Source of the DNA: Pseudarthrobacter sp. L1SW
Lineage (GTDB): Bacteria; Actinomycetota; Actinomycetes; Actinomycetales; Micrococcaceae
Length of the DNA: 64,000 bases
Reading direction: 5' to 3'
NCBI RefSeq assembly: GCF_020809045.1
Contig: NZ_CP078079.1
Coordinates: 3,968,001 to 4,032,000, forward strand
A program made the position numbers and the translations under genes. Below, one piece after another: positions 34,985 through 53,605 of this stretch. Every line of letters begins with the position of its first letter. Positions within the stretch are counted from its first letter, which is position 1. The notes under the pieces were generated by a model, which made no database searches, was not told the origin of the DNA, and saw only the letters and a list, made by a program, of their open reading frames with translations.

Positions 34985-35824
34985 ATGAAGTCCCCTGCAA
35001 GGACCACCCCCGAGGCTGAGCTGAGTTGCGAGGTCTGCGGCCTGATGCCGGAGCCGACCCGGACGCGGCTGACCTTAGCCAACGTGGCCGTGATGCTTCC
35101 GATCGAGCTCCTGGTCCATGCCCTGGTGGTGGGCACCGAGCTTCCCTACCTGGCCAAGGTGCTGGTGCTGACTGTCACCGCCACCGTCCTGGTCATTTGG
35201 GTGGCGGAGCCCTCCGCCGCCCGGGTGCTCCGCGGCTGGCTGCATGCTCCGGCCCTGCGGCAGCGGCGGCGGCTCGCCGTGGCCCCCGCGTTGTGGCGGG
35301 CCCGCACCGTCCTGCGGGATGAGCCGGGATCATTGCAGAAGGTCACCAAGGCCCTGGCCCGGCTGGACACGAATATCCTGAGCATCCACGTGCACCCGGT
35401 GGCCGGCGGCGTGCTGGACGAGTTTGTTCTGTCCACGCCCGGCGACGTGGATGAATACCAGCTGCTCGAGGCGCTGCAGCAGGCCGGCGGTACCCGGTCC
35501 CGCGCCTGGCCCACAACAGCGCTGGCCATGGCGGACGGGCAGACGAAGGCGCTGAGCCTCGCGGCCCGGATCGCCGACGCGCCGGATGAGCTTCCGCTCG
35601 CGGTGGCGGAACTGCTGCGGGCACGGATCCTTTCCCCGTCGGAGGCGCTGTTGGAAAGGCACGACGCCGGCACGCGGCTCAAGATTCCCACGGCCTGGCA
35701 CGGCCCCATCACCTTTGCGCGTCCCGGGGAGCCGTTCACCCCGGCGGAATCCGCCCGCGCCCACCGGCTGGCCGAGCTCGCCGAGATCCTGGCTCACCGC
35801 CCGGCCCCGGGCCTCCCCAGTTAG
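34985..35824 (+). CDS. Membrane-anchored ACT-domain protein
   Basis: 279 residues. Two hydrophobic segments lie near residues 36-80, followed by a basic stretch and an ACT domain from about residue 110 (GSLQKVTKALARLDTNILSIHVHPVAGGVLDEFVL). ACT domains sense amino acids. The C-terminal 100 residues are not recognised. It is divergent from the FUSC gene. TAGGTAGCGC at its stop codon matches part of the pca hairpin arm. Confidence 0.7.
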   Translation: MKSPARTTPEAELSCEVCGLMPEPTRTRLTLANVAVMLPIELLVHALVVGTELPYLAKVLVLTVTATVLVIWVAEPSAARVLRGWLHAPALRQRRRLAVAPALWRARTVLRDEPGSLQKVTKALARLDTNILSIHVHPVAGGVLDEFVLSTPGDVDEYQLLEALQQAGGTRSRAWPTTALAMADGQTKALSLAARIADAPDELPLAVAELLRARILSPSEALLERHDAGTRLKIPTAWHGPITFARPGEPFTPAESARAHRLAELAEILAHRPAPGLPS

Positions 35825-35846
35825 GTAGCGCAGTTCCGGGCGGGGG

Positions 35847-42582: not shown

Positions 42583-43794
42583 TTAGGCCTTTCCTGTGTT
42601 GTTTCCGGAGGCGGTGACGTTTTCGAGGACCACGGCCAGCCCCTGCCCGACGCCGATGCAGATCGCAGCGACACCCCAGCGTTCGCCGGAGGCCTGCAGC
42701 GACCGCGCCAAAGTGCCCAGGATCCGGGTGCCGGACGCGCCGAGCGGGTGGCCCATGGCGATGGCCCCGCCATGCCGGTTCACGATCGAGGGATCGATGC
42801 CCCAGGCGTTGATGCAGGCCAGGGACTGGGCGGCGAACGCTTCGTTAAGTTCGACGGCGCCCACCTGGTCCCAGCCAATCCCCGCCTTTGCGAGGGCTTT
42901 GTTCGCCGCCTCGACCGGCGCGTAGCCGAAGTACTGCGGATCGTTCGCGTGCGCCCCGCGTCCGGCGATGCGGGCCAGGGGCTCCAGCCCCAGCAGCCCG
43001 GCGGCAGCCTCGGACCCCACCCAGGCCGCGGAGGCGCCGTCGGACAGCGGCGAAGCATTGCCCGCGGTGACGGTCCCGTCCTCGGTCCGGAAGACCGTCT
43101 TCAGCCCGGCGAGCTTCTCTGCCGACGAACCTGCCCGGATGCCTTCGTCCCGGACCAGGTCCGTGCCCGGAACCGGGGCCACGAGGTTGTCGTAGAAGCC
43201 CTCATCCCAGGCGGCGGCGGACAGGTTGTGGGAGTTCGCGGCGAACTCGTCCTGGGCCTCACGGGTCACACCGTACTTCTCCCGCAGCCGTTCGGTGGCC
43301 TCGCCCAGGGAAATGGTCCACTCCTTCGGCATGGCCTTGTTCACCAGGCGCCAGCCGAGCGTGGTGGAAGCCAGGGTCATGTCCCCGGCCGGGTAGGGCT
43401 TCTCCGTCTTGGGCAACACCCAAGGGGCCCGGGACATCGACTCCGCCCCGCCCACCAGCATCAGGTCGGCGTCGCCGGCGTTGATCTGGCGGGAGGCGAT
43501 GATCGCGGCGTCCAGCGAGGAGCCGCAGAGCCGGTTCACCGTGGTGCCCGGGATGGACACCGGCAGGCCGGCCAGCAGGGTGCCCATCCGGGCGATGTTC
43601 CGGTTCTCCTCGCCGGCGCCGTTGGCGTTGCCGAACACCACCTCGTCAATCCGCTCCGGATCCAGCGCCGGGGCGCGCTTCACGGATTCCTTGATCACGT
43701 GCGCGGCAAGGTCGTCGGGGCGGACGGCGGCAAGGCCGGAGCCGAATTTGCCGAACGGGGTGCGCACGGCGTCGTACACAAAAGCCTGGTTCAT
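42583..43794 (-). CDS. pcaF: 3-oxoadipyl-CoA thiolase
   Basis: 403 residues of thiolase with the acyl-enzyme Cys90 in NRLCGSSLDA, the His in NRHGGAIAMGHPLGASG, and the second Cys in CIGVGQGLAVVLE. It splits beta-ketoadipyl-CoA to succinyl-CoA and acetyl-CoA. AAGAGGAG precedes the ATG. A long hairpin separates it from pcaC upstream. Confidence 0.94.
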   Translation of the reverse strand: MNQAFVYDAVRTPFGKFGSGLAAVRPDDLAAHVIKESVKRAPALDPERIDEVVFGNANGAGEENRNIARMGTLLAGLPVSIPGTTVNRLCGSSLDAAIIASRQINAGDADLMLVGGAESMSRAPWVLPKTEKPYPAGDMTLASTTLGWRLVNKAMPKEWTISLGEATERLREKYGVTREAQDEFAANSHNLSAAAWDEGFYDNLVAPVPGTDLVRDEGIRAGSSAEKLAGLKTVFRTEDGTVTAGNASPLSDGASAAWVGSEAAAGLLGLEPLARIAGRGAHANDPQYFGYAPVEAANKALAKAGIGWDQVGAVELNEAFAAQSLACINAWGIDPSIVNRHGGAIAMGHPLGASGTRILGTLARSLQASGERWGVAAICIGVGQGLAVVLENVTASGNNTGKA

Positions 43795-43824
43795 GGTGCT
43801 CCTCTTAATTCTGTCGGTGCCCCT

Positions 43825-43890
43825 CCCAACTAGGTAGCGCTAAGTGTCGTTTTGGAGGCTCATAACGACACTTGGCGCTACCTAGTTGGG
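43825..43890. repeat. 27-bp-arm inverted repeat between pcaC and pcaF
   Basis: Left arm 43825-43851 begins CCCAACTAGGTAGCGC; right arm 43864-43890 ends GGCGCTACCTAGTTGGG. They pair over 27 bp with one mismatch (a G-U pair in one RNA strand) around a 12-nt loop. No T tract follows on the operon strand. It may stabilise or process mRNA, or be a dispersed REP-like element. Confidence 0.85.
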
Positions 43891-43900
43891 CGGGCGGGGT

Positions 43901-44347
43901 TTAGTCGGTGTGGGTTGTGTCCAGCTCGCGGAAGACTTCTTGGGCTGTTTTGAAGGCGGTGTTGGCCGAGGGCACTCCGCAGTAGATGGCGGTCTGGAGC
44001 AGGATTTCCTTGATCTCGTCCCGGCTCAGGCCGTTCCGGACGGCGGCGCGGATGTGCATGGCCAGCTCTTCCCAGTGCCCGTGGGCTACCATCGCCGTGA
44101 TGGTGACGGCGGAGCGCATCTGGCGGGTCAGGCCGGGCCTGGTCCAGATGCCACCCCACGCGATCCGCGTGATCATGTCCTGGAAGTCCTCGGTGAACTC
44201 GTCCTTGTTGGCGTTGGCCCGGTCCACGTGAGCATCACCCAGGACTTCGCGCCGGACCTTCATGCCGCCGTCGTAAATGTCCTGGCTGGTGGCGTCCGGC
44301 CGGACCACACCGTGCCGCTCCGCGCCCGCCTGTCCAAAGCTGCTCAC
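43901..44347 (-). CDS. pcaC: 4-carboxymuconolactone decarboxylase
   Basis: 148 residues of the CMD family: FTEDFQDMITRIAWGGIWTRPGL, TITAMVAHGHWEELAMHIRAA and the ending LLQTAIYCGVPSANTAFK. It decarboxylates gamma-carboxymuconolactone to beta-ketoadipate enol-lactone. It is a separate gene here, overlapping pcaD by 4 nt (ATGA), while many actinobacteria have the fused pcaL. Confidence 0.93.
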   Translation of the reverse strand: MSSFGQAGAERHGVVRPDATSQDIYDGGMKVRREVLGDAHVDRANANKDEFTEDFQDMITRIAWGGIWTRPGLTRQMRSAVTITAMVAHGHWEELAMHIRAAVRNGLSRDEIKEILLQTAIYCGVPSANTAFKTAQEVFRELDTTHTD

Positions 44348-53483: not shown

Positions 53484-53526
53484 CGGCCAGCCGGGCCGGA
53501 GGCACACTCGGCCCGTTTTCACGCCC

Positions 53527-53560
53527 GAAAGCCCGCCATTCCCCCAAATGGCGGGCTTTC
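53527..53560. terminator. Bidirectional terminator between MFS and ligase genes
   Basis: GAAAGCCCGCCATT (53527-53540) pairs perfectly with AATGGCGGGCTTTC (53547-53560) over 14 bp with a 6-nt loop, in the gap between two convergent genes. Confidence 0.85.
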
Positions 53561-53605
53561 CCTGTTGAAAAACGGGCTGGCGTGGCGGCCGGCGGACAGA
53601 AAGCC

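Follow-up and report, generated by a model that had tools for sequence, protein, structure and literature searches.

Is the long hairpin between the pcaC- and pcaF-like genes a private signal of the pca operon, or does it belong to something larger? A sequence-only reading of the window (the whole 64,000-nucleotide stretch analysed here) had described 27-bp arms with one mismatch, a 12-nt loop and no T run behind the hairpin, and inspection of the sequence confirmed this description. The inverted-repeat finder extended the structure to 43821-43894, with 34-nt arms that are 91% complementary, and ranked it first among the 37 inverted-repeat pairs of the window; longer arms were found only in the pair 53503-53584 (38 nt, merely 71% complementary). 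RNA folding of 43805-43910 gave -64.6 kcal/mol (z -8.56), a value that none of 200 shuffled sequences equalled. A known Rfam RNA was ruled out, as a search with positions 43700-44000 gave no match above the curated threshold and four below it (two microRNA families, one lncRNA and one mRNA element). The features of the window considered here are:

43825..43890, no strand: 66-bp palindromic element, a copy of what we call family A, with two 30-nt arms and a 6-nt centre
43825..43854, no strand: left arm, made up of CCCAAC, TAGGTAGC, the lineage-specific mid-arm GCTAAGT (type AAGTG) and GTCGTTTTG
43855..43860, no strand: central hexamer GAGGCT
43861..43890, no strand: right arm, the reverse complement of the left arm with two differences
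43901..44347, minus strand: pcaC-like gene, stop 10 nt from the element (putative name, from the sequence-only reading)
42583..43794, minus strand: pcaF-like gene, downstream in the same direction, start 30 nt from the element (putative name, same origin)
35815..35846, no strand: scar that a lost copy left at a convergent-gene junction, retaining CCCCAGTTAGGTAGCGC (from comparison with relatives)

The hairpin at 43825-43890 belongs to a family of extragenic 66-bp palindromes spread across the genus. When the element was searched as DNA against G000, the genome that contains the window (4,096,555 bases in a single contig), it gave 79 matches at no fewer than 40 places, and a one-arm pattern found 120 arms, compared with 10 for the reversed control. 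Aligning copies drawn from 100 listed of these 120 arms and from the places found by DNA search gave at least 56 copies of the palindrome, a lower bound. Their consensus reads CCCAAC, TAGGTAGC, GCYAAGT, GTCGTTTTG, a hexamer and then the reverse complement, with near-invariant arms. The hexamer varies between copies and is mostly R V S S B Y: across positions 31-36 it tends to run from purines through G or C to pyrimidines, and no matching base pairs form within it. Length is near-constant at 66 bp, with one 67-bp copy in the relative G360. The dispersed family at which the sequence-only reading had hinted was thus recovered. That reading had also posed an alternative, a single pca copy meaning operon control or many copies meaning a mobile family; the many copies are there, and mobility did not come with them, the copies being fixed in place and their arms changing concertedly by lineage.

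Arms outside complete copies were rare. With 120 arms, 56 copies and about 10 control matches, G000 showed no clear excess of unpaired arms, and 116 stretches of named genomes (928 kb) held 131 complete elements and 1 solo outer arm. An autonomous MITE parent with the same terminal repeats was not found among the G000 arms or in these named stretches, and these arm counts ruled out a parent element with single arms.

We then followed the family across genomes with a type-blind pattern that takes the outer 14 bases of each side around 38 free bases and allows at most 3 mismatches. It found copies in 58 of 101 genus genomes, up to 45 per genome, with 0 control matches; since it fixes outer arms and length, and undercounts copies with other outer arms (the CTAGCTCGC forms at pca) or lengths (the 67-bp copy of G360), the 58 genomes are a lower bound. 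The arm type of G000 itself matched in 7 of 295 genomes of the taxonomic family, six of them in the genus (G000 included) and the seventh, with a single match, in another genus. All 80 matches listed in an exact scan of named genomes came from Arthrobacter, Pseudarthrobacter or Paenarthrobacter. The element was also present in three plasmid records, in two of which (conjugative plasmids) it lies 8 nt behind aceA. Phage records searched with the element gave no match, ruling out a phage source. No description of family A was found among the titles, abstract openings and passages of open-access papers that were searched, and literature searches with parts of the family A and family B sequences returned only papers unrelated by title.

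Family B is a second palindrome of the same design, 67 bp long and composed of AGCAACGCGGGGTCACT, 33 bases and AGTGACCCCGCGTTGCT. It occurs in 60 of the 101 genus genomes, with up to 64 copies per genome and 1 in G000, and its inner block, in the rows listed, seems lineage-dependent (GCCCAT; mostly GCCCAAT in G009). Competition between families A and B was ruled out by a Spearman coefficient of -0.02 over the 101 genomes. The stretches of G360 contained further recurring long hairpins, of a GCTCTATCACCT type and an AAGCG..ACGACG type, which perhaps represent more families:

L417:9008-9074, L421:6404-6470, L408:10119-10185 and L411:14155-14221: family B copies in G360
L421:13498-13544, L426:5431-5483, L423:15123-15176 and L424:90-143: further long hairpins in G360

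Placement at gene ends, like the family itself, is well supported. Gene calls were made by our own codon-usage script rather than taken from annotation, and they put 25 of the 56 G000 copies between convergent genes, 25 between tandem genes and 6 between divergent genes; for the window, 755 of 6964 intergenic bases lie between convergent genes. Distances to stop codons were taken from a second gene prediction on 600-base flanks, in which 51 G000 copies had a facing gene end. Forty-six of the 51 lie -16 to 30 nt from the stop (median 7 nt), 43 lie -16 to 15 nt from it, and the gene end overlaps the element in 12; for comparison, a stop is no more than 30 nt away from 1036 of the 6964 intergenic bases of the window. 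The -16 to 30 nt range also held 32/34 copies in G360, 24/25 in G347 and 29/33 in G375. Named genomes yielded 96 placeable copies, 4 of them inside a predicted gene; a gene end faced 86, and 72 of these were equally close to the stop. The genes inspected beside G000 copies were various. At dnaN, the gene ends in Leu-Pro-Asn-stop in 30 of 30 genomes read, and its terminal bases, CCCAACTAG in most genomes, match the left end of the element also at junctions without one; G352 and G360 carry the element ~15 nt further on, with its own CCAACTAG.

Comparison with relatives revealed that most copies occupy common loci. In G360, 34 of 37 pattern copies sit at the loci of G000 copies. When the likely places of the remaining 22 G000 copies were fetched from G360, 5 copies were present in diverged form, 7 were absent, 1 was ambiguous and 9 were not located, so that at least 39 of the 56 G000 copies lie at the same loci in this one relative. 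G347 has 15 loci in common with G000 (of 27 copies) and G375 has 24 (of 35 copies fetched; 42 in G375), one G375 copy that was assigned to two G000 loci being counted once. These fixed positions do not bear out the mobile family proposed by the sequence-only reading, and mobility is at most history. In chromosomal distribution, G360 has no family A pattern copy over 939 kb (1425668-2364855; p 0.005), and clustering was not detected in G000, where the largest gap is within chance (p 0.23).

Sites that lack a copy were informative in their turn. At 1295922, G000 and G360 differ almost exactly by the element, and no target-site duplication is visible at this near-exact empty site (2 extra bases); the flanks differ more at the six other absent sites. 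Six of the seven G360 sites lacking a copy have no strong hairpin, from which we conclude that the junctions need none. The one exception (2905752) is occupied by a family B palindrome where G000 has family A, and with only 1/7 sites of this kind, functional replacement by other hairpins was ruled out. At dnaN, 12 junctions were flagged as element-free and one of them, G310, was left out as a plainly diverged copy; the other 11, including G384 with an inner element fragment further on, gave fold z values of -2.8 to +1.5 and are not strongly structured. Between pcaC and pcaF, some form of the element was present in all 29 best-matching relatives (four of them read in part) and absent in 16 of 20 further genomes from weaker matches, whose gaps measure -10 to 44 bases and hold some remnants. 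G329 lacks the element at this gap and yet has 36 pattern copies genome-wide.

A loss of this kind accounts for the second site in the window. The sequence-only reading had noticed that TAGGTAGCGC, from the hairpin arm, recurs at 35822-35831 and had taken it as a hint of a scattered family. A window search found the match to be exact, one of 4 at up to 1 mismatch, two of which are the hairpin's own arms; the shuffle mean was 1.55 and 7/100 shuffles reached 4, so that by chance statistics alone the match is weak. Relatives decided the matter. We examined the junction at 16 of 30 fetched loci; both sides were readable in 11 relatives, 8 of which have the element or an odd form of it. Of the rest, G344 has its two ends fused, G304 retains a fragment and G346 shows nothing recognisable; in G000 only the left end survives. 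By these alignments, the match at 35822 is the remnant of a lost family A copy, and the hint of a wider family was borne out at this site.

The arms of surviving copies differ by lineage. We compared mid-arms in detail in four genomes. The mid-arm 5-mer is AAGTG in 110/112 arms of G000 and 73/74 arms of G360, AGATG in 46/70 arms of G375, and in G347 either AACTG (26/54) or ATCTG (19/54). The copies listed for G300 are a mixture of several types, and listing by the type-blind pattern revealed further types in other genomes. Between G000 and G375, mid-arm identity is 0.369 for orthologous and 0.367 for non-orthologous copies, compared with 0.895 and 0.839 within the two genomes. Lineages therefore differ in their mid-arm even where the copies are orthologous, and within some genomes it is near-uniform. 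The G000 set was gathered with a type-specific query; however, 45 of its 56 copies meet the type-blind pattern, the same number that this pattern finds by itself, and other types are therefore not hidden in G000 at that stringency. Uniformity has its exceptions, as some genomes (e.g., G382 and G321) lack one common type at dnaN and pca. Type switches were not placeable on a 50-genome tree of 412 columns, in which 14 of 47 inner branches are starred for weak support.

The central hexamer, on the other hand, retains some locus identity. Agreement at the same locus exceeded that at other loci for the same-type pair G000-G360 (0.711 vs 0.464) and for the cross-type pairs G000-G375 (0.618 vs 0.500, p 0.0004) and G360-G375 (0.648 vs 0.528, p 0.0034). 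The signal is lacking in G000-G347 (0.433 vs 0.458, p 0.70) and falls short of significance in G360-G347 (p 0.08) and G347-G375 (p 0.056), so that it appears in 2 of 5 cross-type comparisons. It is small at pca and dnaN, where identity within the locus is 0.59 and 0.53 and that between loci, taken in the better of two orientations, is 0.52. At 2348704, an unusual end, GTTTCG, is present in both G000 and G347 despite their difference in type.

We looked for signs that the two arms of a copy change together. In G347, the arms match above shuffles at pairs 15, 16, 19 and 20; in G360 and G375, a few arm pairs do so; and G000 shows no pairing excess (1582 paired cells vs 1594 in shuffles). Orthologous copies gave 84 double-change cells at pca (shuffle mean 41.3, max 58) and 34 at dnaN (shuffle mean 19.5, max 30), counts that common ancestry inflates. 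In the 14 copies listed for G354, mid-arms are often unpaired. Paired changes in some genomes suggest that the arms form a hairpin or cruciform. On the sense strand of tandem copies in the four genomes, we counted 83 G.U vs 102 A.C mispairs, which does not favour folding as RNA in the transcribed sense; selection on the sense RNA is not supported by this test, which is weak because so long a stem may tolerate single mismatches. Paired changes without sense-strand bias therefore point to an element that is read strand-symmetrically and is capable of forming a hairpin or cruciform, with recognition of its sequence as a plausible further step. Finally, identical centres within a genome were more frequent than in column shuffles (52 vs 28 in G000, 65 vs 44 in G375, 19 vs 11 in G360 and 17 vs 12 in G347). 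Such an excess could reflect copying; the column shuffle also breaks correlations between columns.

How does family A compare with known systems? A RAYT transposase is the usual explanation for REP-type palindromes scattered through bacterial genomes. The sequence-only reading had pointed to a partner RAYT gene, and none was found: Y1_Tnp gave 0 matches in G000 even at E<=10 and a gene in 1 of 101 genus genomes (E<=0.001), with a control search that finds the E. coli protein in both cases. Given the missing RAYT and the 39 or more G000 copies whose loci G360 shares, the family is not mobilised by RAYT, and a RAYT-driven REP was ruled out. Integron attC sites end in RYYYAAC/GTTRRRY and lie in cassette arrays served by an integrase; the CCCAAC/GTTGGG ends of family A resemble these ends, but its copies are dispersed and its arms nearly symmetric. 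Uptake sequences of Neisseriaceae and Pasteurellaceae are ~10-12-mers in a thousand or more copies, with dialects that go with their reader. Family A is like them in being dispersed, often paired at gene ends and lineage-wise concerted, and unlike them in being a 66-bp palindrome in tens of copies, for which a reader is only postulated.

Family A does consist of dispersed, extragenic, multi-copy hairpins of inverted pairs, as REPs and REPINs do. In the portions of the two sources cited here, REPINs and GTAG-type REPs are described as hairpins of two inverted conserved units associated with RAYT (Bertels and Rainey 2011, PMC3116915; PMC8049555). Against that description, family A shares the extragenic position, tens of copies or more, two inverted units, a variable centre, long-term inheritance and the occurrence as complete units rather than singlets (PMC3116915, PMC8049555); it differs in having no RAYT, a near-constant length of 66 bp and concerted arm differences at orthologous places. 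Its GTAG lies at element positions 10-13, inside the stem of both arms and not at the hairpin end as in GTAG REPs. CGTC-tagged REPs, in the part of PMC3733652 that describes them, are palindromic repeats apparently without a dedicated transposase; family A is similar in that none is apparent, and differs in lacking a CGTC end tag, its ends being CCCAAC...GTTGGG (PMC3733652). Of the 4,072 REPs of E. coli, 446 are found no more than 15 nt from a stop, where they are reported to stall ribosomes (as cited in a passage of PMC12306157), and the family A copies at -16 to 15 nt resemble these in place. We conclude that family A represents dispersed extragenic palindromes in a variant that lacks RAYT and keeps to gene ends; it is REPIN-like in outline, and we file it as neither a REPIN nor a stop-proximal REP.

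Several explanations compete for these observations. The best one, to which we assign a probability of roughly 0.42, is a gene-end family that is read strand-symmetrically by a postulated factor and acts as a boundary. Its main rival, which we consider somewhat improbable, is neutral homogenisation, in which the mid-arm of one copy overwrites that of another through template switching or short conversion, with the conserved blocks on its outer and inner sides as anchors, and is then copied from arm to arm within the palindrome; no reading factor is required. The variable block is indeed flanked by two conserved blocks, arm-to-arm copying would also yield paired changes, identical centres are commoner than the column shuffle predicts, and several types coexist in G347 and among the listed G300 copies. 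However, conversion of whole elements would take the centre along, yet the centre keeps its locus identity in 3 of 6 comparisons (G000-G360, G000-G375 and G360-G375), the GTTTCG end at 2348704 outlasts the type difference, and 9-14 bp is a very short anchor length for ordinary recombination. We regard as unlikely a REPIN- or MITE-like miniature element whose transposase is now lost or unrecognised and which, since inherited vertically, is tolerated only at gene ends. Such an origin would fit a hairpin that is extragenic, present in many copies and built from two inverted units around a variable centre, the almost exclusive occurrence of complete copies in the named stretches, the presence/absence differences (one nearly exact, at 1295922) and the plasmid copies; it fits poorly with the Y1_Tnp results, the lack of a clear unpaired-arm excess for a parent in G000 and the lack of a visible target duplication at 1295922, and it leaves the change in place of old copies unexplained.

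Two plainer accounts fare worse. Bidirectional intrinsic terminators with arms alike by descent would explain the position behind genes, the excess at convergent junctions and the very stable stem. We nevertheless think them distinctly improbable: the copy at 43825-43890 has no T tract and lies between two same-strand genes; the right-flank profile of the 56 copies is G-rich; there is no sense-strand bias; termination does not require a shared arm sequence; and both the six empty G360 sites and the 11 dnaN junctions do without strong structure. A hairpin that regulates the pca operon alone would agree with the presence of a form of the element at the gap in all 29 best-matching relatives, but it is refuted by the copy count, 55 further copies being present in G000, the inspected ones by various genes, and the element is missing at the gap in the 16 weaker-match genomes, G329 among them.

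According to the boundary reading, the arms would form a hairpin or cruciform bound by a postulated sequence-specific factor. We propose a strand-symmetric boundary because the palindrome reads alike from both sides and favours convergent junctions. The preference of the factor would drift and the sites would follow through selection, and the central hexamer, not read in detail, would retain part of the history of each locus. The likely effect would be at the end of a transcription unit, either by stopping or shielding transcripts or, as reported for E. coli REPs within 15 nt of a stop, by acting on ribosomes at the stop codon. Within the pca operon, the element would part the genes upstream of the gap from the putative pcaF and later genes. 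Y1_Tnp was the sole candidate reader searched for, and no candidate was found. The fuller proposal that a factor of the Arthrobacter group reads tens of gene-end palindromes, whose sites are rewritten in place, arm by paired arm, as the centres keep their ancestry, is one that we put forward tentatively and consider doubtful.

Family A is a large REP-like family without RAYT that keeps to gene ends, has mostly stayed in place and differs in concert at orthologous sites. With many sequenced genomes and culturable strains at hand, it offers a testable case in which the cause would be a gene-end reader of a new kind or else an uncommon process of homogenisation. If the proposal of a reading factor is true, these bacteria would possess a chromosome-wide system of gene-end marking with dialects.
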